DNA from: Catellicoccus marimammalium M35/04/3
GTDB lineage: Bacteria > Bacillota > Bacilli > Lactobacillales > Catellicoccaceae
Assembly (NCBI RefSeq): GCF_000313915.1
Contig: NZ_AMYT01000011.1
Coordinates: 124,001-188,000, forward strand
Direction of reading: 5' to 3'
DNA length: 64,000 nt
In this document: piece after piece, positions 31,402-59,728 of the stretch
Layout of the letters: the number at the start of each line of letters is the position of its first letter
How positions within the stretch are numbered: position 1 is the stretch's first letter
The notes under the pieces: generated by a model
The model's database searches: none
What the model was told of the DNA's origin: nothing
Seen by the model: only the letters and a program-made list of their open reading frames with translations
Translations under genes and position numbers: made by a program

Positions 31402-32823
31402 TTGTTAGAAAAAATCTTTCATTTAAAAGAACATCATACAACCGTTAGTCGAGAAATTATTGCTGGATGTATTACTTTTTTTGCAATGAGTTATATTTTA
31501 TTTGTTAACCCAGCAATGTTGTCAGAAACAGGAATGCCTTTCCAAGCTATCTTTTTAGCAACGATTATTGCAGCAGTAGTAGGGACATTAATTATGGGAC
31601 TATTTGCCAATGTTCCTTATGCTCAAGCTCCTGGTATGGGGCTTAATGCTTTCTTTACTTTTACCATTTGTTTTGGTATGGGGTATTCTTGGAAGCAAGC
31701 GCTAGGAATTGTATTTTTATGTGGATTGATTAACTTATTAATTACGGTTACTCATTTACGTAAAAAGATTTTAGAAGCGATTCCAAGTGTAATTCAACAT
31801 GCAATTGGTGCAGGAATTGGCGTCTTTGTTGCTTATGTTGGAATTAAAAATGCTGGCTTTTTAAACTTTACTTCGGATGCAAGTAGTATTATTTCTTCTA
31901 AAGTAAGCGGTGGAAAAGCAATTGAAGTTATTAGTAATGGGAATATTACTCCTAGCTTAAGTTTGTTTAACCAACCCGCTGTGATATTAGCATTAATTGG
32001 ATTATTGTTGACTATTGTTCTTGTAATGAAAAAGGTTCCAGGAGCGATGTTAATTGGGATTATTGTAACTACATTATTAGCGATTCCTTTTGGTGTGATT
32101 GATGTCAGTCATATTTCTTGGGCGAATAATTCTTTAGGATCAGCGATTCATGATTTGAAAACAACCTTTTTAGCTGCTTTTTCTAGCGAAGGATTACCAT
32201 CATTATTTATGGATTGGCAAAAACTGCCGCAGACATTAATGACTGTTTTAGCTTTTAGTTTATCTGATATTTTTGATACCATTGGTTCATTAATTGGAAC
32301 CAATCGTAAGTCACAAGCGTTTACAGATGATGAAGAAAAAGAAGGATATACAAGCATGGATAAAGCGTTGGTCGCTGATTCTATTGCGACGATGACAGCA
32401 TCTGTATTTGGAACTTCTAACGTAATTACCTATGTTGAAAGTGCTGCAGGAATCGCAGCAGGAGGAAGAACGGGATTAACTGCAGTAACTGTGGCTGTAC
32501 TTTTTGCTTTAAGTAGTTTCTTTGCTCCATTAATTAGTATTGTACCTGCACAAGCGACAGCACCTGTCTTAATCATTGTAGGAATTATGATGGCTGGTTC
32601 CTTTACAGAAATTCATTGGGATGATCTTGAAGAAGCCATTCCAGCTTTCTTTACTGCGATTTTCATGGGACTATGTTATAGCATTTCTTATGGTATTGCT
32701 TGTGGATTTATTATGTATTGCTTCGTGAAGATTGCGATGAAAAAAGCAAATGAAATTAAACCAATGCTTTGGATTGTTACAATTTTATTTGTATTAAACT
32801 TTATCCTTCAAGCATTCTTATAA
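31402..32823 (+). CDS. Purine (guanine/hypoxanthine/adenine) permease, AzgA/PbuG family
   Basis: Membrane nucleobase importer of 473 residues with about 12-14 hydrophobic segments. The AzgA-like N-terminus is clear (REIIAGCITFFAMSYILFVNP, then ANVPYAQAPGMGLNAFFTF near residue 70), as is the central FSLSDIFDTIGSLIGTNRKS and the substrate region TYVESAAGIAAGGRTGLTAV near 335. The start is TTG 31402, seven bases after GAGGAGG. The stop codon is the first base of the 42-bp repeat that bounds the accessory block downstream. Confidence 0.88.
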   Translation: MLEKIFHLKEHHTTVSREIIAGCITFFAMSYILFVNPAMLSETGMPFQAIFLATIIAAVVGTLIMGLFANVPYAQAPGMGLNAFFTFTICFGMGYSWKQALGIVFLCGLINLLITVTHLRKKILEAIPSVIQHAIGAGIGVFVAYVGIKNAGFLNFTSDASSIISSKVSGGKAIEVISNGNITPSLSLFNQPAVILALIGLLLTIVLVMKKVPGAMLIGIIVTTLLAIPFGVIDVSHISWANNSLGSAIHDLKTTFLAAFSSEGLPSLFMDWQKLPQTLMTVLAFSLSDIFDTIGSLIGTNRKSQAFTDDEEKEGYTSMDKALVADSIATMTASVFGTSNVITYVESAAGIAAGGRTGLTAVTVAVLFALSSFFAPLISIVPAQATAPVLIIVGIMMAGSFTEIHWDDLEEAIPAFFTAIFMGLCYSISYGIACGFIMYCFVKIAMKKANEIKPMLWIVTILFVLNFILQAFL

Positions 32824-32862
32824 AAAAAGAATCCTTACTAGATAATTAGTAAGGATTTTTTT
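32821..32862 (+). repeat. 42-bp direct repeat, left copy (contains a terminator)
   Basis: Identical to 36264-36305. It holds the hairpin AATCCTTACTA-GATAAT-TAGTAAGGATT with an A-run and T-run, a bidirectional terminator. The left copy begins at the permease stop codon; the right copy ends at the stop of the DUF2929 gene. Confidence 0.95.
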
Positions 32863-32970
32863 GATGCTAAAAAGATTCGATGATAAAAAGAATAGTTAAT
32901 TTAACTCTATCAATATTTTTTAAAAAAATCAACACGCTTTCAGAAAGCTTTTCATAACCTTTACATTTTT

Positions 32971-32999
32971 TTGACAATATATTTCTAGGCAATTAGTAT
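32971..32999 (+). promoter_or_regulatory. Strong promoter of the MFS exporter
   Basis: TTGACA (32971-32976), 17-base spacer, TAGTAT (32994-32999). It is near consensus. The ribosome site follows about 60 bases later; an imperfect dyad TATGAACT...GAGTCATA (about 32999-33026) lies in the leader. Confidence 0.75.
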
Positions 33000-33067
33000 A
33001 TGAACTGTCGTAATTCTTGAGTCATAAATTATCTCCTCGAAAAAATATGAAAGATAGGAGAATTAAA

Positions 33068-34549
33068 ATGACAAAACAAAGGAAATTAATAGTTACTATT
33101 GCTTTATTTATTGCTACATTTATGTCAGCAATTGAAGGAACAATAGTTACAACAGCTATGCCAACCATTATTTCTTCTTTGGATGGCTTATCTGTTATGA
33201 ATTGGGTGTTCTCTATTTATCTACTAATGAGTGCTATTATGACACCTATTTATGGGAAATTAGCTGATCTAAAAGGGCGAAAAATAATCTTTATTATTGG
33301 TATATTATTCTTTATTATTGGCTCTTCTCTTTGTGGATTGTCACAAAGCATGGAATTTTTAATTTTTTCTAGAGCAATTCAAGGGATTGGAGCTGGATCT
33401 ATTTTACCATTATCTTTGACGATTATTGCAGATCTATATACAGCAGAAGAAAGAGCTAATATTATGGGATTAAATAATGCGGCTTGGGGGATTGCTAGTA
33501 TTATTGCTCCTCTATTAGGAGGAATGATTGTTCAATATTTGAATTGGCATTGGATCTTTTTAATCAATGTCCCAATTGGTATTATTGTCATTGGAATGGT
33601 ATTTTTTGGATTAAAAGAGAATCGAAATAATTTTAATAGTGTAGGAAAACTTGATATAAAGGGAGCTGCATTATTAATGATATTTTTACTTTTATTCTTG
33701 TACGCTTTCCAACTTTTCGGAGATCAAGGGTTTAAAGCTCCTGTATTTTTATTATTAATTATTAGTGTAATTATCTTGCTTTTATTCATTAGAATAGAAA
33801 AAGTAACCGAAAATCCAATTATTTCTCCAAAATTATTTAATTCTAAATCAGTTTTAATTATAAATTGTGTTACTTTATGTGTTAGTGGATTTTTAACAGG
33901 AATTGATGTTTATACACCTATGTGGTTACAAACATTGAACGGTTCTTCTGCTACATTAAGTGGGTTAGCCTTGGCTCCTATGTCTATTTTTTGGATGGTG
34001 GGATCATTTTTAGCTGGAAAATTATTATCTAGATTAGAAGTTAAGAAAATTTTATTGATAGGTTCTAGTCTGTTATTTGTTTCTACTATAATTTATAGTA
34101 TCTATCCAATTTCAACACCATATTTTGTATTTTGTATTATAGGTGTTCTTTTAGGAATTGGATTTGGAATGAGCATTACTACTTCAGCAGTAGCTATACA
34201 AGAGAGTGTAGAAACAAAATTAGTTGGAAGTGCCACTTCTTTAAATACGCTATTCCGTACATTAGGGCAATCAATCATGGTTGCAATTTACGGTACAGTG
34301 TTAAATATGAGTATGAATAGTGAAATGACAAAATATCCTCAAATTCATCAAGAAGATTTAAATAGATTTATGAATGTACAAGAAGTACACAATGTTCCAA
34401 CGGGTATTTTACAATCTTTACGTTCTATTATGTATAATGGATTACATCATATTTTTATTACGTCTGTTGTAATTATGTTATTATCTTTAGTGTTTTTATT
34501 ACTATGGAAAGCTAAAAATACTAATAAAAATGAGAAGAATGAAAAGTAA
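33068..34549 (+). CDS. MFS drug exporter, DHA2 family (accessory)
   Basis: Predicted 14-TM proton-driven exporter of 493 residues. DHA2 features: SAIEGTIVTTAMPTI in helix 1, GKLADLKGRKIIF (motif A) near residue 70, RAIQGIGAGSILPLSLTIIADL near 100 and AAWGIASIIAPLLGGMI near 140. I chose ATG 33068 (MTKQRK) behind AGGAG; ATG 33017 would add 17 unlikely residues. It differs from the other DHA2 exporter at 7973-9580 and belongs to the accessory block. Its substrate may relate to the two downstream proteins, e.g. export of a toxic compound (inference). Confidence 0.85.
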   Translation: MTKQRKLIVTIALFIATFMSAIEGTIVTTAMPTIISSLDGLSVMNWVFSIYLLMSAIMTPIYGKLADLKGRKIIFIIGILFFIIGSSLCGLSQSMEFLIFSRAIQGIGAGSILPLSLTIIADLYTAEERANIMGLNNAAWGIASIIAPLLGGMIVQYLNWHWIFLINVPIGIIVIGMVFFGLKENRNNFNSVGKLDIKGAALLMIFLLLFLYAFQLFGDQGFKAPVFLLLIISVIILLLFIRIEKVTENPIISPKLFNSKSVLIINCVTLCVSGFLTGIDVYTPMWLQTLNGSSATLSGLALAPMSIFWMVGSFLAGKLLSRLEVKKILLIGSSLLFVSTIIYSIYPISTPYFVFCIIGVLLGIGFGMSITTSAVAIQESVETKLVGSATSLNTLFRTLGQSIMVAIYGTVLNMSMNSEMTKYPQIHQEDLNRFMNVQEVHNVPTGILQSLRSIMYNGLHHIFITSVVIMLLSLVFLLLWKAKNTNKNEKNEK

Positions 34550-34561
34550 TGATTAATATCA

Positions 34562-34597
34562 AAAAAAGAATTCAGCTTAATTTCTGAATTCTTTTTT
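34562..34597 (+). terminator. Terminator after the accessory MFS gene
   Basis: AAAAAAGAATTCAG...CTGAATTCTTTTTT stem. It separates the exporter from the two downstream unknown genes. Confidence 0.88.
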
Positions 34598-34630
34598 ATT
34601 AAGATATATATTTTTAGAAGGAGGAAAATG

Positions 34631-34852
34631 ATGAAACTGATAAAAGTGGATAATAGTACGTATATAAATGAAGGGCTGATCCTTTCTATAGAAGGATACA
34701 TTATTAGAAATGAAGAAAAGTATTGTATTATTCGAATGGTAGATGGAATGACAAAATATATACCATTGAATACGGTTGAAGAAGAATTTGGTATTACATT
34801 TAATGATAAAAAAGCTAATGGGCCTTCATTTACTGATATAAATTACAGATAA
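34631..34852 (+). CDS. Hypothetical protein, 73 residues (accessory block)
   Basis: Unrecognised. Short soluble protein with a beta-rich look (YINEGLILSIEGYIIRNEEKYCIIRMVDGM) and a polar C-terminus (FTDINYR). ATG 34631 lies six bases after AAGGAGG; the adjacent ATG 34628 is also in frame. The stop is followed at once by AAGGAG for the next gene, so the two are certainly one transcript. It may be a partner or inhibitor of the 462-residue protein; this is a guess from layout only. Confidence 0.7.
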   Translation: MKLIKVDNSTYINEGLILSIEGYIIRNEEKYCIIRMVDGMTKYIPLNTVEEEFGITFNDKKANGPSFTDINYR

Positions 34853-34864
34853 AAGGAGAAGTTG

Positions 34865-36253
34865 ATGTTAACAAAAATTGAACTAACTTTAGAATGTATA
34901 CAAGATTTTCCTAAATTAAAAAATGCATTGCGAGAATTATCTAGAAATATTATAAAAAAAGATATCGAAAATCACATAGGAATTGTTGATTGTTATATAT
35001 TAGAAAACAATATTACTATAGATAAAAAAAGATATACGACATTAGATGATGTAGTTAACGATTATCTTAATGAATTAGAATCATACAATATAAGTAATAA
35101 AATAAGTATATTCAATAATGGCGATATTTCATATTCTATTTATACAGAGGGAAAACAAGGAATTATTACTTATCATTTTGATAAAGTAAGGATAGATGTA
35201 TATAAAGATCTATGGAAAGCAAAATCTTTATCCGTTTTAAATAATGAGATTAAAGAAGGGGAATTATCTTATATTTGCTTATATTACATTATTAATAATG
35301 AAGAAAAAAAAGTGATTCAGCAAAAAATTAACCAAACTTCAAAAAAAATAAGTTCTATCTTTGAAGAAAAAAAATTAAAAATTGCTTCGAAGAAAAATAT
35401 TTCATCTATGAATAATCAAAATGATATTATCTCCATAGAATTGGATTCTAACAATGAAGATAATTTTTATTCGCATAAAGAATTTTTAGATGAGATATTT
35501 GTATCTAAACAAGAAGAAGAAATAAATAAAAAAATAAATAAAAGTATAAAAATAATTGCAGATATTTTAAAGAGTGTAATAACAATGTCTAGCTCCTCAG
35601 AAAATGCAACTTCATTTTCAGCAATAACTATGTATCAATATCAAAACTTTATTACTAATTTATATAAAATTGATTGGTATATTCCTTTATGGAATTTACC
35701 AACAAGTTTAAACACTCACATACTAACGTTGTTAAAAATATTAGAAAATAATAAAGGGATGGCTACTTCTATATTACAGATGTTAGATGATGAATTATTT
35801 TATGCTTTACAAAAAGAACTATGCTCAGAGACACAATTTATAGATATATTTTCTGAATCAGATTTAAGTTTGTATTATCTCTATAGTCAAGGTTATTATT
35901 CAGAGGTTGTTATTTTATCTTTAAATAATATAAACTACCAATTGATGAATATTTTGAAAAAACATAAGATTCTCTCTACAACAAATCTGGAACAAGAGGA
36001 CTTGGTAGGAAGAATAAAAAACGCAAATAACTCAATTTTAAAAATTTTAGAATTATTCTTCGATCAACAACCAATATCTAAAATTTATAGTAATTTTGAA
36101 AAAAATGATGGTATGTATAGAAATGATTTGGGAGATTTATCATTATGTCAAAAAATGGTAAATGCCGGAATATATAGTGAAAATATTATTTCTGAAAAAA
36201 TAGCACTGAAAGCTCTATTTGCTTATAAATTTTTTAAAAGTTTGAATATGTAG
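34865..36253 (+). CDS. Hypothetical protein, 462 residues (accessory block)
   Basis: Unrecognised. Roughly three parts can be seen: an N-terminal alpha/beta region (1-145; KIELTLECIQDFPKLKNALREL), a Lys/Asn/Ser-rich and probably flexible or coiled middle (150-240), and a helical C-terminal half (240-462). The end contains RNDLGDLSLCQKMVNAGIY, weakly reminiscent of the R-N-x-x-x-H region of HEPN folds but without the His. No signal peptide or transmembrane helix. ATG 34865 is six bases after AAGGAG; TTG 34862 is less likely. Heavy use of ATA, AGA and AAT codons marks it as foreign. The gene ends ten bases before the right terminator copy. Confidence 0.72.
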   Translation: MLTKIELTLECIQDFPKLKNALRELSRNIIKKDIENHIGIVDCYILENNITIDKKRYTTLDDVVNDYLNELESYNISNKISIFNNGDISYSIYTEGKQGIITYHFDKVRIDVYKDLWKAKSLSVLNNEIKEGELSYICLYYIINNEEKKVIQQKINQTSKKISSIFEEKKLKIASKKNISSMNNQNDIISIELDSNNEDNFYSHKEFLDEIFVSKQEEEINKKINKSIKIIADILKSVITMSSSSENATSFSAITMYQYQNFITNLYKIDWYIPLWNLPTSLNTHILTLLKILENNKGMATSILQMLDDELFYALQKELCSETQFIDIFSESDLSLYYLYSQGYYSEVVILSLNNINYQLMNILKKHKILSTTNLEQEDLVGRIKNANNSILKILELFFDQQPISKIYSNFEKNDGMYRNDLGDLSLCQKMVNAGIYSENIISEKIALKALFAYKFFKSLNM

Positions 36254-36263
36254 AGATATTTTG

Positions 36264-36305
36264 TAAAAAAAGAATCCTTACTAGATAATTAGTAAGGATT
36301 TTTTT
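36264..36305 (+). repeat. 42-bp direct repeat, right copy (contains a terminator)
   Basis: Exact copy of 32821-32862. It terminates the accessory genes and, on the minus strand, the DUF2929 gene, whose stop codon begins at its last base. Confidence 0.95.
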
Positions 36306-36484
36306 TACTGTTTTTTTGGTGTTGGAATAGCAATTGCATCAATTAACATAACAATAAGAGCGACAACAATAGAAGCAATTACTGTTGGAATAAATGCATA
36401 GGCATTCATTGTTAATTTAGCACCAATAAATCCAACGACTTGGCCTAAAATTAAAGACCAGAATAAGATTACTAAATAGCGCAT
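36305..36484 (-). CDS. DUF2929 (YjzD-like) small membrane protein
   Basis: 59 residues on the minus strand, starting MRYLVILFWSLILGQVVGFI. Two transmembrane segments (about 3-22 and 30-50) and a basic end PTPKKQ. This agrees with the DUF2929 family, a conserved Firmicutes membrane protein without known function. AGAAGGG lies six bases before ATG 36484. It is divergent from dnaE, the usual neighbour. Confidence 0.8.
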   Translation of the reverse strand: MRYLVILFWSLILGQVVGFIGAKLTMNAYAFIPTVIASIVVALIVMLIDAIAIPTPKKQ

Positions 36485-54174: not shown

Positions 54175-55485
54175 ATGACAAAACCAACGATTGCCATTGT
54201 CGGTCGTCCAAATGTTGGAAAATCAACTTTATTTAATCGTATCGCTGGAGATCGTATTTCTATTGTAGAAGACGAACCTGGTGTAACACGTGACCGTATC
54301 TATGCGACTGGAGAATGGCTAGGACATGAATTTAGTATTATTGATACTGGGGGGATTGATCTTGGTGATGAACCATTCATGTCACAAATTAAAGAACAAG
54401 CACAAATCGCGATGGATGAAGCAGATGTCATTTTGTTTGTAACAAGTGGTCGTGAACATGTTACAGACGCAGACGAAGCTGTCGCTCATATGCTTTACCG
54501 TTCAAATAAACCAGTAATTTTAGTCGTAAACAAAGTAGATAACCCAGAAATGAGAAACGATATCTATGATTTCTATGCACTAGGATTGGGAGATCCATAT
54601 CCAGTTTCTGGTGCTCATGGTGTCGGAATGGGGGATGTTTTAGATAAAGCGATTCAATACTTCCCAGAAGAAAAAGAAGAGGAAGAAGAAGGCGTAATTA
54701 AATTTAGTTTAATTGGTCGCCCAAATGTTGGGAAATCATCCTTAATCAACGCCATTTTAGGAGAAGATCGTGTAATTGTCTCTAATATTGCAGGAACAAC
54801 TCGTGATGCGATTGATACTTCTTTTGTAGATGAAGAAGGACAAAAATTTGTCATGATTGATACTGCTGGAATGCGTAAACGTGGGAAAGTATATGAAAAT
54901 ACAGAAAAATATAGCGTAATGCGTTCGATGAAAGCCATTGACCGTAGTGATGTTGTCCTAATGGTTTTAAATGCAGAAGAAGGAATTCGTGAATATGACA
55001 AACGAATTGCTGGATTTGCACATGAAGCAGGGAAAGGCATGATTATTGTTGTCAATAAATGGGATGCCATTGAGAAAGATAATCATACAATGAAAGAATT
55101 TGAGGAAGATATTCGTAAAGAATTCCAATACTTAAGCTATGCGCCTATCATTTTTGTTTCTGCTAAAACGAAACAGCGTTTAAATCAATTACCAGCATTA
55201 ATTGAAAAAGTAAGTATGAATCAAAATCTTCGCGTTCCATCTGCCTTATTAAATGATGTAATTATGGATGCGATTGCGATTAATCCAACTCCAACCGATA
55301 AAGGACGCCGCTTGAAGATTTTCTATTGCACACAAGTAGCAGTAAAACCACCAACTTTTATTGTCTTTGTAAATGATGAAGAGCTAATGCACTTCTCTTA
55401 TACACGTTTCTTAGAAAATCAAATCCGAGCAGCGTTTGACTTTGAAGGAACACCAATTCGAGTGATTCCACGTCGTCGCACATAG
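54175..55485 (+). CDS. der: Ribosome assembly GTPase Der (EngA)
   Basis: Tandem GTPase needed for 50S subunit maturation. 436 residues. Two G domains: [14 protein letters not shown] (residues 9-22), DTGGID, NKVD, then [14 protein letters not shown] (near 183), [14 protein letters not shown], and a KH-like C-terminal domain ending VIPRRRT. I chose ATG 54175 ([12 protein letters not shown]) after GAGGAG; ATG 54148 would add nine residues. The last 26 codons and the terminator are repeated at 59601-59728, so the present 3' end probably comes from an integrated element. Confidence 0.95.
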
Positions 55486-55536
55486 AACTAAACAAAAAAA
55501 GACACTACTTTTCAGTGAAGTAGTGTCTTTTTATTT
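55410..55536 (+). repeat. 127-bp direct repeat, left copy (attL-like, der 3' end)
   Basis: Matches 59601-59728 except two C-to-T changes (55425, 55459) and one extra T in the right copy. Covers the last 26 codons of der and the terminator. Here der is intact. Confidence 0.95.
55498..55532 (+). terminator. Terminator after der
   Basis: AAAGACACTACTT-TTCAGTG-AAGTAGTGTCTTT followed by TT; part of the repeat. Confidence 0.92.
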
Positions 55537-55630
55537 CCTTCATTCATTTTTACGTTGTTTAAACAAATACTCGAATTCTTCTACATCTTCAATAGTAGCA
55601 TATTTGACAATAAAACTTTGCGAATTGATA

Positions 55631-55705
55631 CTAAATTAATTGAATTAATAGAAAGGCCATCAATATCAAAATAAAGATTCCGATCCAATTAATATAAAGT
55701 TTCAT
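55631..55705 (-). CDS. Possible 24-residue hydrophobic peptide
   Basis: A 24-codon frame from ATG 55705 gives an almost wholly hydrophobic peptide (begins MKLYINWIGIFILIL, ends LIQLI). Size and composition resemble type I toxin or signal peptides, but no ribosome site precedes it and the frame may be chance. See also the 18-codon frame upstream. Confidence 0.3.
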   Translation of the reverse strand: MKLYINWIGIFILILMAFLLIQLI

Positions 55706-55764
55706 TTCATACTTTTGGGTTTTCTTTTTTTATTTTCATTCTCTATAATGGATAATAGGAGGTA

Positions 55765-55780
55765 GGGGAGAAGTCTCCCC
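55765..55780. other. Stable GC-rich hairpin in the decayed element
   Basis: GGGGAG-AAGT-CTCCCC in otherwise AT-rich DNA, without a T-run on either side. May be an RNA structure between the two small minus-strand frames. Confidence 0.4.
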
Positions 55781-55814
55781 GTACTCTCAATATTTTAGTT
55801 TGAACTCAAAGATT

Positions 55815-55871
55815 TTAATTCCAAACAGTACCAGTAAAATGTGGAATTCTTTGGGTTCTTTTATTATCCAT
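55815..55871 (-). CDS. Possible 18-residue peptide with a perfect ribosome site
   Basis: ATG 55871 lies five bases after AAGGAGG on the minus strand and reads 18 codons (begins MDNKRTQRIPHF). An inverted repeat covers the likely promoter upstream. Too short to judge; a leader or signal peptide is possible. Confidence 0.35.
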   Translation of the reverse strand: MDNKRTQRIPHFTGTVWN

Positions 55872-55895
55872 TTTTACCTCCTTATGTTTATATAT

Positions 55896-55915
55896 TACAC
55901 ATGCTTTTATGTGTA
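55896..55915 (-). promoter_or_regulatory. Inverted repeat upstream of the 18-codon frame
   Basis: TACACAT-GCTTTT-ATGTGTA, perfect 7-base arms, about 25 bases before the AAGGAGG site on the minus strand and beside a TATATA -10-like sequence. Operator-like. Confidence 0.45.
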
Positions 55916-55977
55916 TAATAAATTATTTTTATAAAAGTTTTTCTCTATTTGTGAAATCAAAGCGCCAAAAAAACTTG

Positions 55978-56010
55978 GTGCTTATTTTAGTCTTTTCACA
56001 AAGATTAAAA
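55978..56010 (+). repeat. 33-bp imperfect repeat in the element, left copy
   Basis: 29 of 33 bases match 57522-57554 (both start GTGCTTATTTTAGT and end AAAGATTAAAA). Each copy is the right arm of a small hairpin plus a tail. Confidence 0.7.
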
Positions 56011-56167
56011 TGTTTTTGTTGAGCTTACTGCTTTTCTAACAATATAAATTAAGATGCCTTAAACAAACAACAAGAGTTTCTAAGCTCAGATTATATCGAC
56101 ATTTGAGGATGAGAAGAGAGGGATAGGAATATGAAAAGAGTAGAAAATAAATCTTGCTCTTTTGTTT

Positions 56168-56670
56168 TTATTCTTTGATATTAATGATAAATTTAACTTC
56201 ATAATCAGTATATTCAATATGTTGAATCTCCTTTTTTAAGTTCCCTACATCTAAATTATTTTCGTCAGCTTCAGAATGTCCTAAATACTATGATGAAAAA
56301 TATTTACCTCATTATTAATAATCTTAAGGTTAAGAAATATATAATATTTATCTTTAATTTTCGTACTTAGCACTTAAATATTTAATATCTTCATCTTTTA
56401 AATTCATTCCATCATATTGCACTGTTTGATCACGATTAAATAGTTTTTCTTGATCTTTGCTATCACTAGATTTTGAAGCTTGTTCAGCACTACTTTCATT
56501 TTTAGCGGTTGTTTTTTTTCGCTTTCAACTATAACAATTCCAATGATAATAATAATAACAATTAAGACCTAAAATCATACTTTCTTAAAAAGTTTCTTTT
56601 GAACGTAAGTATCTCTGTTTTCATCTGTAATTTTTTTACTTGTAATTCTTTTTAAAAAATATATTATCAT
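56168..56670 (-). pseudogene. Degenerate DUF4352-like membrane-anchored phage protein
   Basis: Reading the minus strand in pieces gives a recognisable plan: KKITDENRDTYVQKKLFKK, a hydrophobic helix VLIVIIIIIIGIVIV, a Ser/Lys-rich linker (ESSAEQASKSSDSKDQ), and a C-terminal domain ending VKFIINIKE before TAA at 56168. The usual W-F-W before the helix now reads TGA-TTT-TAG (56569-56577), and at least two frameshifts follow. Proteins of this plan are common beside repressors in Lactobacillales prophages (family knowledge). Confidence 0.65.
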
Positions 56671-56740
56671 GATTTTAAAATAATTTTAATGTTTACATTG
56701 AGACTTTTTTTTGTTATTTTTTATCTAGGAGGATCAAAGA

Positions 56741-57289
56741 ATGAACAAAAAGATAGTTTTAGGATTAGGTATATTATTAAGTTTAGGTTTTTTGACAGGA
56801 TGTGGAGAAAAATCTGAGCAAGAAAATAAGATTGCTGACCTAGAAAATGAGTTAAACACTAAAAATTCAGAAATTGTAAAGATGAGTGATGAAAATAAGA
56901 AATTGTCTGCAGAAAATAGGAATTTAAAAAATGTTGCGGAAGAATTAAAACAGGAAGAAAAAAGGGTACAAGAATTAGAAAATCGTTTGGAGCAAGCCCA
57001 AAAAGAAAATAAAGAATTACAATCAGAAAATAAGAAACAAAATTATATTCAAAACGATACAGCATCAACAACACCGGCTACGAAAAGTAGTGTTAGCAAT
57101 CAGAATGCTAAAGTTGAAACAAAGACTATTCAATCTAATTCTAATAAAGTTTACGCTAACTCAAAATCTAAAATATATCACGTTAAAGGCGGTCAGTTTT
57201 ATAATGAAATGAGCGATTCAGAAAATTTAGTTGTCTTCAATAGTCCACAAGAGGCAGAAGCTGCAGGATATAGAATATCTAAGAAATAG
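56741..57289 (+). CDS. Coiled-coil lipoprotein (accessory)
   Basis: 182 residues. Signal peptide with lipobox LTGC (Cys21), a long coiled coil (about 28-100) rich in Glu, Lys and Asn heptads, a Ser/Thr linker, and a C-terminal 45-residue unit starting VYANSKSKIYHVKGGQF that resembles the Ada-type metal-binding fold found at the end of some phage and secreted nucleases. Where those have Cys, this one has Gly (KGGQFYNEM), so metal binding is doubtful. ATG 56741 follows AGGAGG. It sits in the der-linked element; a superinfection or surface role is conceivable but unproven. Confidence 0.75.
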   Translation: MNKKIVLGLGILLSLGFLTGCGEKSEQENKIADLENELNTKNSEIVKMSDENKKLSAENRNLKNVAEELKQEEKRVQELENRLEQAQKENKELQSENKKQNYIQNDTASTTPATKSSVSNQNAKVETKTIQSNSNKVYANSKSKIYHVKGGQFYNEMSDSENLVVFNSPQEAEAAGYRISKK

Positions 57290-57299
57290 AGGGATTTAT

Positions 57300-57497
57300 A
57301 TGAAATTTGGAATGCGTAAACCTACTTATCGTTCTCCAATTAGTAGAGCGAAAAGCAATGCAAAGAGAAAAATGAAAAAAGCTGTTATTCCTGGATATGG
57401 TAAAAAAGGAACAGGAATGCTTAAAGATCCAAAGAAAGCTATGTATAATAAAGTGTATAATAAAACTACTTTCTCTTGGAAAGATTTCTTCAAATAA
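57300..57497 (+). CDS. Small basic phage-type protein
   Basis: 65 residues, strongly basic (KRKMKKAVIPGYGKKGTGM). The plan with VIPGYGKKG and NKVYNKTTF is frequent next to repressor genes of Lactobacillales phages; function unknown. ATG 57300 follows AGAGGGA, ten bases after the lipoprotein stop. A longer upstream reading frame from 57231 is inside the lipoprotein gene and is rejected. Confidence 0.7.
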   Translation: MKFGMRKPTYRSPISRAKSNAKRKMKKAVIPGYGKKGTGMLKDPKKAMYNKVYNKTTFSWKDFFK

Positions 57498-57504
57498 AAA
57501 CAAA

Positions 57505-57531
57505 AGCACTAGGGCTTCCTAGTGCTTATTT
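57505..57531 (+). terminator. Terminator after the small basic protein
   Basis: AGCACTAGG-GCTT-CCTAGTGCT with an interrupted T-run (TATTTTA). Confidence 0.75.
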
Positions 57532-57554
57532 TAGTTCTTGCGCAAAGATTAAAA
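57522..57554 (+). repeat. 33-bp imperfect repeat in the element, right copy
   Basis: Partner of 55978-56010 (29 of 33 bases). Confidence 0.7.
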
Positions 57555-57565
57555 ATTATAAACTA

Positions 57566-57853
57566 TTAAAATAGAATGCAGTCATAAGAATGATTATCAG
57601 GAATTAACATAATTTGTTCTCCTGATTGTTTAAATCTTTTAAGCGTAATCTCTCCATCGATGCAGACCTCAACAATATCTCCATTTTCTACTACAGGTTG
57701 ACGGCGAATTAGTACTTCACTTCCATGTTTGATAGTAGCATGCATGCTATCTTCTTTAGCTATTAATGCGAAATATTCGCCATCTTTAACACCATTAGAA
57801 ACAACTTGTAAATATCTTACTATATTTTGCTCAGGAGAAATCAGAGCGACATA
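57566..57853 (-). pseudogene. Truncated CI-like repressor, S24/LexA peptidase domain only
   Basis: An open frame of 95 codons without start codon. It reads as the C-terminal dimerisation/peptidase domain of a phage repressor: DGEYFALIAKEDSMHATI (with the catalytic-type Ser-Met), GSEVLIRRQPVVENGDIV, and DGEITLKRF with the Lys. The helix-turn-helix half and the cleavage site are missing; an in-frame stop lies at 57854-57856. A further 37-codon plus-strand remnant (57873-57986, EENSWFFGIEKDEL) follows. Loss of the repressor means the element is no longer a regulated prophage. Confidence 0.8.
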
Positions 57854-58021
57854 TTAGAGTCAATGATTAAAATTAGAAGAATTGTTGAATACTTATAGTC
57901 CATTATTTAGATTTTTAGAAGAAAATTCATGGTTTTTTGGAATTGAAAAGGATGAACTCACAGCAGTTTTGCTTGTAATAGAGTAGATGATACCTAAACT
58001 TTAAAAAATTGAAGATGAAAT

Positions 58022-58046
58022 AAGACGGAACGTAGGGCACCGTCTT
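58022..58046 (-). terminator. Possible terminator of the winged-helix gene
   Basis: AAGACGG...CCGTCTT stem (58022-58028, 58040-58046) downstream of the minus-strand gene; T-run weak. Confidence 0.45.
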
Positions 58047-58055
58047 AATGAATGA

Positions 58056-58424
58056 TTATTTTATAAATAAAGATAATCCTTTTGATAGCCATTCTTTTAT
58101 TTGGCGACCCACTGCTTTATCGTAATAGGCAATAGCTTTGGATGTCAGATTAATCATTAGTAAAGTATTGGAAGCTTTAACATAGGTTACTAATTCATGA
58201 GACTTTAATTCAGACATAGCTTGAAACGCTTGTTCATGACAAAAATTTAAGTGCTCAGCTATCGAAGATAACTTATCGATTAAGTATCTATGTTCGTATA
58301 AAGTACCATCAGATTTTTTCATTGAATGTATTTTATACAATTCGATTAACATTTCATCGGCATCAACGGTTAAAATATTCTTACCTTGTTCTTTGTATTC
58401 TGGATACTTGATTGGATTATTCAA
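58056..58424 (-). CDS. Putative winged-helix DNA-binding protein (accessory)
   Basis: 122 residues. LIDKLSSIAEHLNFCHEQAFQAMSELKSHELVTYVKASNTLLMINLTSKAIAYY looks like a winged helix: a recognition helix followed by a beta wing, then a helical end. No closer assignment. The start is uncertain: AAAGGAGG lies directly before GTG 58436, too close for use, so I prefer TTG 58424 (ten bases downstream). Its position beside the repressor remnant suggests phage or plasmid replication or control. Confidence 0.5.
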   Translation of the reverse strand: MNNPIKYPEYKEQGKNILTVDADEMLIELYKIHSMKKSDGTLYEHRYLIDKLSSIAEHLNFCHEQAFQAMSELKSHELVTYVKASNTLLMINLTSKAIAYYDKAVGRQIKEWLSKGLSLFIK

Positions 58425-58486
58425 AAGGAAATTCACCTCCTTTCATTAGGAGATAAACAAATTATATCAAAAAAGAGATGAGAAGA

Positions 58487-58639
58487 ATGACAACTATCTT
58501 TTTTATTTCTGTTTTTATAGCTTTTCTTTTTTGGATTGTAAGTTTAGTTACAAATAACAAGAAAATGTTTCAAATTGTAGATAGTATCTTAACAATAATT
58601 ATCTTCATAGAAGTTATATTGCTGTTATTAAGAAAATAA
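58487..58639 (+). CDS. Possible 50-residue membrane peptide (accessory)
   Basis: Fifty codons from ATG 58487 giving two hydrophobic segments around VTNNKK (MTTIFFISVFIAFLFW... ...IIIFIEVILLLL). Divergent from the winged-helix gene; its 3' end overlaps the next minus-strand gene by 26 bases. GAGATGAGAAG upstream is a weak ribosome site. Confidence 0.4.
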   Translation: MTTIFFISVFIAFLFWIVSLVTNNKKMFQIVDSILTIIIFIEVILLLLRK

Positions 58640-59201
58640 TTATAAATTTAAACGCCGATTTTATGATATTCCAAATAGATTTTGGTGTAATTATGGAAAA
58701 AGCTTGTTTGATTCCATATACATAATCTTCCTTGAAATTGGAGTATTTTCGATTAATTTTGATTCTTCCATAATCTCTATCAATTTCATCTCTAATTTTG
58801 TTAACAATCTCTAGTTTAGAGACTAGATCCAGTTTTTGAATTTCTGAAGAATAAGAATATAGAACTAGAAAATCTGAATTATAGTAATCCATTTCATGGC
58901 ATAGCTGTTTAATTAATTTAATTAACATATCTGTATTGTATTCATGAATTAGATGTTTTATTCTTTGTTCTTTATTAGAATAACGGACATTTGGAAGAAA
59001 GTGGGAATTAATATATTCTTCTAATTTTGTTACTTCTTCGCCTATTTCTTTCAAAATATTCTTCATTTCTAATATATTTTCTTCATTTTTTTTATCATAA
59101 TATCTTTTTTTTAGAATGTGCCAAATGGGGTATATAAGAAAAAGAAAAATAGTTAGAAAGATGATACCAATTTTTATATAATTGGAGAATTGTTTTGACA
59201 T
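58614..59201 (-). CDS. Hypothetical membrane protein (accessory)
   Basis: 195 residues, unrecognised. One N-terminal transmembrane helix (about 10-30, IKIGIIFLTIFLFLIYPIW), a long charged helical middle (35-170) and a hydrophobic C-terminus (about 178-195). ATG 59201 has a weak GGTAGG site. Between the winged-helix and excisionase-like genes of the element. Confidence 0.6.
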   Translation of the reverse strand: MSKQFSNYIKIGIIFLTIFLFLIYPIWHILKKRYYDKKNEENILEMKNILKEIGEEVTKLEEYINSHFLPNVRYSNKEQRIKHLIHEYNTDMLIKLIKQLCHEMDYYNSDFLVLYSYSSEIQKLDLVSKLEIVNKIRDEIDRDYGRIKINRKYSNFKEDYVYGIKQAFSIITPKSIWNIIKSAFKFIIIFLITAI

Positions 59202-59266
59202 TATAAGTTACCTACCATTATTAAAAAATATAATTACATTATATCAAAAAATAAGGAGTGATCAAT

Positions 59267-59494
59267 ATGACTACAGAAGTAAAAGAAATAATGGCCAATA
59301 TCGATTCTTTAGCTTTATATTTAAAACCTTCTTGGAATCAAAAAGGATTGGCTAAAGCATTAGGAATGTCAGTTACTACGCTAAAAAAACAAGAATGGTA
59401 TACAGAAATACCCTATATTCCAACAAGGGGTCATAGAATGTGGTTTTCAGAAGATGTTATTAAGACATTGAAAGAGTATCGAATTTTAGATTAG
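59267..59494 (+). CDS. Excisionase-like helix-turn-helix protein (accessory)
   Basis: 75 residues. A MerR/Xis-like winged helix: WNQKGLAKALGMSVTTLKKQEWYTEIPYIPTRGHRMWFSEDVIKTL, i.e. turn, recognition helix, then the R-x-W/F-S-x-x-D-V pattern of excisionases. ATG 59267 follows AAGGAGTG; an in-frame ATG at 59258 lies within the ribosome site. It lies about 100 bases from the right repeat, where a recombination directionality factor could act, but the integrase is gone. Confidence 0.6.
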   Translation: MTTEVKEIMANIDSLALYLKPSWNQKGLAKALGMSVTTLKKQEWYTEIPYIPTRGHRMWFSEDVIKTLKEYRILD

Positions 59495-59600
59495 GAAATA
59501 TCATCAAGTATTTAGATAGATGTGAATACAAGGAACATAAAGGAGAAAAAAATTACAAAGATTGGATACTGAAAAGACGATAAGTTTATTCAAAGAAAGA

Positions 59601-59728
59601 CTTAGAAAATCAAATTCGAGCAGCGTTTGACTTTGAAGGAACACCAATTTGAGTGATTCCACGTCGTCGCACATAGAACTAAACAAAAAAAGACACTACT
59701 TTTCAGTGAAGTAGTGTCTTTTTTATTT
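59601..59728 (+). repeat. 128-bp direct repeat, right copy (attR-like)
   Basis: Second copy of the der 3' end and terminator. One C-to-T change (59650) turns a der Arg codon CGA into TGA, consistent with a non-functional displaced copy. Confidence 0.95.
59690..59724. terminator. Second copy of the der terminator
   Basis: Same hairpin as at 55498-55532. It now serves the convergent DUF805 gene on the minus strand. Confidence 0.88.

Follow-up and report, generated by a model that had tools for sequence, protein, structure and literature searches.

How did an exporter gene and two orphan genes come to lie between two identical copies of one terminator in Catellicoccus marimammalium? The locus (locus A) is part of a 64-kb stretch of DNA that was analyzed as a whole and is referred to here as the window. 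Its features, in window coordinates, were as follows.

31402..32823, + strand: purine (xanthine/uracil-family) permease, left flank (ORF; Pfam PF00860, 2.5e-47)
32821..32862, unstranded: terminator copy T1, 42 bp (exact repeat; fold)
32971..32999, + strand: putative promoter of the MFS gene, TTGACA-17-TAGTAT (consensus match; as a class, not above shuffles)
33068..34549, + strand: MFS exporter, DHA2 type, cargo gene 1 (PF07690, 1.1e-58)
34566..34600, + strand: separate hairpin/terminator within the cargo, 3' of the MFS gene (fold -14.0 kcal/mol, z -4.96)
34631..34852, + strand: orf74, small orphan ORF (74 aa), cargo gene 2
34862..36253, + strand: orf463, orphan ORF (463 aa), cargo gene 3 (alternative start 34865)
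36264..36305, unstranded: terminator copy T2, 42 bp, identical to T1 (exact repeat; fold; terminator score)
36305..36484, - strand: DUF2929 protein, right flank (PF11151, 5.8e-16)

Duplication of the terminator

T1 and T2 formed a maximal exact direct repeat of 42 bp with a spacing of 3443 bp, and the match reached 45 bp once 1 mismatch was allowed. With up to 3 mismatches, there were 2 matches in the 64-kb window and 0 in 100 shuffles. Across the 1.28-Mb genome, the 26-bp core was present at just these two positions, and a search of IMG/VR with the terminator core gave no match. Both copies folded into strong hairpins (-17.9 kcal/mol, z -5.35 for T1; -18.4 kcal/mol, z -6.9 for T2) and each received a terminator-like score on one strand or both; the 42-bp repeat is a bidirectional terminator hairpin. 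The original prediction that the terminator after the purine permease is duplicated exactly was thus borne out at 42 of 42 positions. A fold-back palindrome extending beyond T1 was also considered and was rejected as too weak.

T1 begins on the permease stop codon, its first 3 bases (32821-32823) being the TAA. T2 starts 10 nt past the stop codon of orf463 and ends at 36305, on the base that opens the DUF2929 stop codon. The 42-bp terminator therefore fills the entire interval between the stop codons of the permease and DUF2929 genes, in agreement with the earlier claim that the repeat coincides with the whole intergenic terminator. When one copy and the cargo are removed, the reconstructed order is permease stop, terminator, DUF2929 stop, also as had been claimed.

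These data bear on the possibility that nothing was inserted, and that the pair reflects chance likeness, gene conversion acting on an older pair of terminators, or a join made in assembly across a short overlap. The lack of any match in the shuffles speaks against such an origin, as does the position of each copy, flush with the end of a different native gene; the same anatomy also recurs in this genome with different repeat lengths. A 454 read should be longer than a 42-bp repeat. The sequence of type strain CCUG 49459T is an isolate genome with 235-fold coverage and 454 reads, which argues against a false join, although it was a Velvet/Newbler hybrid assembly of 2013 (PMC3569323), in which short overlaps could be misjoined. 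We regard this explanation as very unlikely.

Genes between the two copies

The cargo block from T1 to T2 is 3.4 kb long, and domain matches and ORFs confirmed that it holds an MFS exporter and two orphan genes. The exporter scored 228.9 bits against TIGR00711, slightly below the cut-off of 230.2, and orf74 had a sub-threshold similarity to CarD_TRCF_RID (E 0.022). Domain and profile searches of the cargo identified no integrase, recombinase, transposase or phage gene, so the earlier remark that no transposase is seen held for the interval between T1 and T2.

It had also been claimed that the cargo differs in codon use. This was the case for orf74 (codon score at the 0.2nd percentile) and orf463 (8.5th percentile, with G+C at the 0.3rd), both of which are atypical and A+T-rich, but not for the MFS gene, which had an ordinary codon score (65th percentile) with G+C at the 5th percentile. 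The sister of the MFS gene is a paralogue on C17 of the same genome (76% amino acid identity), and the two group apart from homologues of other genera with 100/100 support; the difference from the nearest known gene is 23-24%. Judged from this grouping, the exporter would fit an origin from DNA of kin or by duplication within the lineage, rather than from a distant donor. For orf463, one relative was found, diverged and split, in the same genome only (C15:100217-101220), and there were none among 197 other relatives, phages, plasmids and IMG/VR. A single-sequence AlphaFold model of orf463 was of no use (pLDDT 32.8). Nucleotide searches at the locus matched MFS and permease fragments alone, at approximately 70%, and a contig search with the permease returned distant genera only and no close relative.

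Terminator pairs elsewhere in the genome

We surveyed 974 kb of the 1,285-kb genome, in stretches, for exact direct repeats 24 bp or longer, leaving out tRNA, CRISPR and coding paralogues. Only 3 places were found (cases A, B and C), each a pair of terminators 3.4-4.5 kb apart flanking inserted genes, with repeats of 42 bp (exact), approximately 128 bp (97.7%) and 51 bp (exact), respectively. An inexact survey added two further, diverged sets (cases D and E).

55410..55536, unstranded: case B left repeat, der 3' end and terminator, approximately 128 bp (97.7% to right copy)
55537..59600, unstranded: case B cargo, prophage remnant (truncated S24/CI-like repressor, phrog_750, phrog_668 HTH)
59601..59728, unstranded: case B right repeat, copy of der 3' end and terminator (97.7% to left copy)
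C15:121783-121833 and 126300-126350: case C, 51-bp exact terminator repeat enclosing the trehalose operon treP-treR-treA
C16:1942 and 3739: case D, diverged pair, 62 bp at 89%, with one exonuclease/TPR gene, beside topB
C15:93.67-104.01 kb: case E, four copies of one hairpin family, all in 10.4 kb

The case C operon sits between cas9 and ileS (gene names read from translations), and the repeat there includes the last codons and the stop codon of treA. The terminators of A and C are different and unrelated, each site having its own hairpin, and a hairpin was present in every sampled case. Case E encloses candidate defense genes, a remnant of hsdM and the one relative of orf463 that is known; its hairpin family was absent from all other sampled stretches. 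Its arrangement looks serial, and it is weaker evidence than the others because the likeness of its copies is limited to the hairpin.

The same search was made in four relatives, 400 kb each (1.6 Mb in total), with a terminator pair defined as at least 36 nt at 85% identity or more, with a hairpin, within 30 kb. There were no local direct terminator pairs in the relatives (0 of 22,122). Within the Catellicoccus genome, local terminator pairs were enriched over distant ones, at 5 of 7,731 compared to 1 of approximately 155,600 (p = 1.4e-6, or 2.4e-5 without case E), and the comparison of this genome with the four relatives gave p = 0.001 (0.004 without case E); these p-values are a guide only, since the criteria were fixed post hoc, after cases A to D had been seen.

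This recurrence of the same anatomy at unrelated terminators, and its absence from 1.6 Mb of the four relatives, support the original prediction that the unit of duplication was the terminator itself. Recurrence at unrelated terminators implies that terminators act as the boundaries of insertions and are duplicated on insertion. Taken together, the sequence comparisons suggest that new genes were added at terminators and that the terminator was duplicated in the process. A broader version, in which terminator hairpins as such serve as gene-addition sites across the lineage through integrase-free, shape-dependent accretion that duplicates the hairpin, with case E as a serial array, seems quite unlikely to us.

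Several other features were observed in the genome. By case C, C15:115305-122000 holds a CRISPR array whose 36-bp repeats have a period of 66 bp. An anti-repeat lies close to C15:118.25 kb, and an ORF resembling cas9 starts at C15:121711, adjoining the trehalose insertion. C16 carries a topB-like gene, a 1355-aa ArdC-N/M78/Toprim_2 polyvalent protein and, at C16:43187, a serine recombinase, and it resembles an ICE- or plasmid-like contig. Within case E, C15:95952-101220 holds a PDC-M39A/B candidate defense pair, the hsdM remnant and the split orf463 relative. A pair at C17:27851 and 29043 (175 bp at 89%) was rejected as a duplicated gene region and not a terminator pair. The ends of C9, C12, C19 and C11 share a long, near-identical, surface-protein-like repeat family that probably breaks the assembly.

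Integrases and recombinases

An integrase-dependent island would leave direct repeats at the 3' end of a gene, and locus A has such repeats; it has no internal integrase or recombinase. The T1 and T2 copies could nevertheless be the attL and attR of such an element (a prophage, IME or PICI) inserted at a gene 3' end and terminator, with its integrase lost or acting in trans. Case B, in the same window, gives this explanation weight. Its cargo is a prophage remnant lying between copies of the der 3' end and terminator, so at least one terminator repeat pair in this genome marks an integration; no integrase was found in the remnant. Since phage integration makes such pairs, att sites of a lost integrase are a serious rival. 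Tandem modules between copies of a target 3' end are also known, as in the ssrA islands of Dehalococcoides (PMC3146451).

However, neither A nor C contains an integrase fragment or a phage gene, and C is coding nearly from end to end. Because the terminators of A and C are unrelated, a separate lost integrase would be needed for each. The tyrosine recombinases of this genome are limited to a pair of XerC/XerD size, and the serine recombinases to two small ones. The likely dif site, at C15:35849, has 1 mismatch to dif of Bacillus subtilis, whereas the T copies differ from the genome's dif at 12-15 of 28 positions. We consider an integrase-dependent element to be a possible but less probable source of locus A.

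Three other origins were rejected. A Xer/dif origin (IMEX) does not agree with T copies that are unlike dif. A DDE transposon does not agree with the lack of a transposase at locus A or with ends that are 42-bp direct repeats. An integron cassette array does not agree with tyrosine recombinases limited to the two of XerC/XerD size or with hairpins that differ from site to site.

Proposed mechanism

We infer that the direction of change was insertion, into an ancestral site with a single terminator. The most likely mechanism, which we put forward tentatively, is a Campbell-type insertion at that terminator, with T1 and T2 as attL and attR. The starting point would be one bidirectional terminator between the permease and DUF2929 genes. 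Incoming DNA, probably from close kin and circular or circularized, would carry the same terminator after its last gene, and a crossover between the incoming and the chromosomal terminator would leave a copy on each side of the cargo, corresponding to attL and attR. The enzyme could be RecA, following uptake of kin DNA, or an integrase acting in trans; uptake is possible because comEC is present. With a terminator on both sides after entry, the permease gene, the DUF2929 gene and the final gene of the cargo would each keep one.

Two observations favor Campbell-type recombination at the terminator. When the ends of the cargo are joined through one terminator copy, a natural gene order results, orf463-T-MFS promoter in case A and a convergent treA-T-treP in case C. 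In addition, the case C repeat holds the treA stop codon, so the terminator may have travelled with the cargo. Other points count against it. A repeat of 42-51 bp is short for a RecA-mediated crossover. Identity over 42 non-coding bp demands very close kin, yet the cargo MFS gene differs by 23-24%. Simple recombination also does not require the repeat edges to lie at stop codons, although selection to keep terminators may explain them.

The same evidence bears on a target-duplicating illegitimate insertion, in which a staggered break across the hairpin (by cruciform cleavage or template switching) is joined to foreign DNA and fill-in duplicates the hairpin. Such an event would produce exact copies at once, with no terminator needed on the incoming DNA, and would account for unrelated terminators alike, for the varied repeat lengths (42, 51, approximately 128 and 62 bp) and for the hairpin in all sampled cases. 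On the other hand, the last codons and stop of treA within the case C repeat imply that the terminator came with the cargo. No described enzyme is known to make staggers spanning a hairpin, and target duplications longer than approximately 20 bp are rare in transposition. An illegitimate insertion is therefore unlikely in our judgment.

Comparison with known systems

If terminators are general sites of landing and duplication, bacteria could gain genes safely without recombinases, and duplicated terminators would offer a simple way to recognize recently gained genes across a whole genome. This would also account for the way in which the reduced genome of a gull-gut symbiont (1.28 Mb) adds exporters, sugar operons and defense-like genes while leaving their neighbors undisturbed. 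In the literature searched, there was no description of recombinase-free blocks between duplicated ordinary terminators recurring in one genome.

Some known systems share parts of this anatomy. The minimal mobile elements of Neisseria are whole genes swapped between conserved genes in competent species with no recombinase, and the Catellicoccus blocks resemble them in this respect; however, those elements need no flanking duplicates, whereas the Catellicoccus blocks have an exact second copy of the intergenic terminator. Integron gene cassettes carry attC, and the two share a hairpin-forming sequence right after the stop codon of each inserted gene, but here there is no integron integrase and the hairpins vary by site and look like terminators. 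Tn7 inserts at the glmS terminator, and in both cases a terminator 3' of a conserved gene is a safe insertion point; locus A, however, has neither the transposase genes nor the 5-bp target duplication of Tn7.

Islands that lie between copies of the 3' end of a gene are a familiar kind of element, and the ssrA islands of Dehalococcoides are an example (PMC3146451). Like them, the blocks described here hold accessory genes between exact direct repeats that copy a gene's 3' end and could be serial, as case E looks to be. They differ in that the repeat is the terminator of a protein gene and changes from site to site, in the lack of an integration module, and in a cargo of 1-3 complete genes. What is known, then, is the island bounded by gene 3'-end copies; what seems new, against the literature searched, is the recurrence, in one genome, of recombinase-free blocks bounded by duplicated ordinary terminators.
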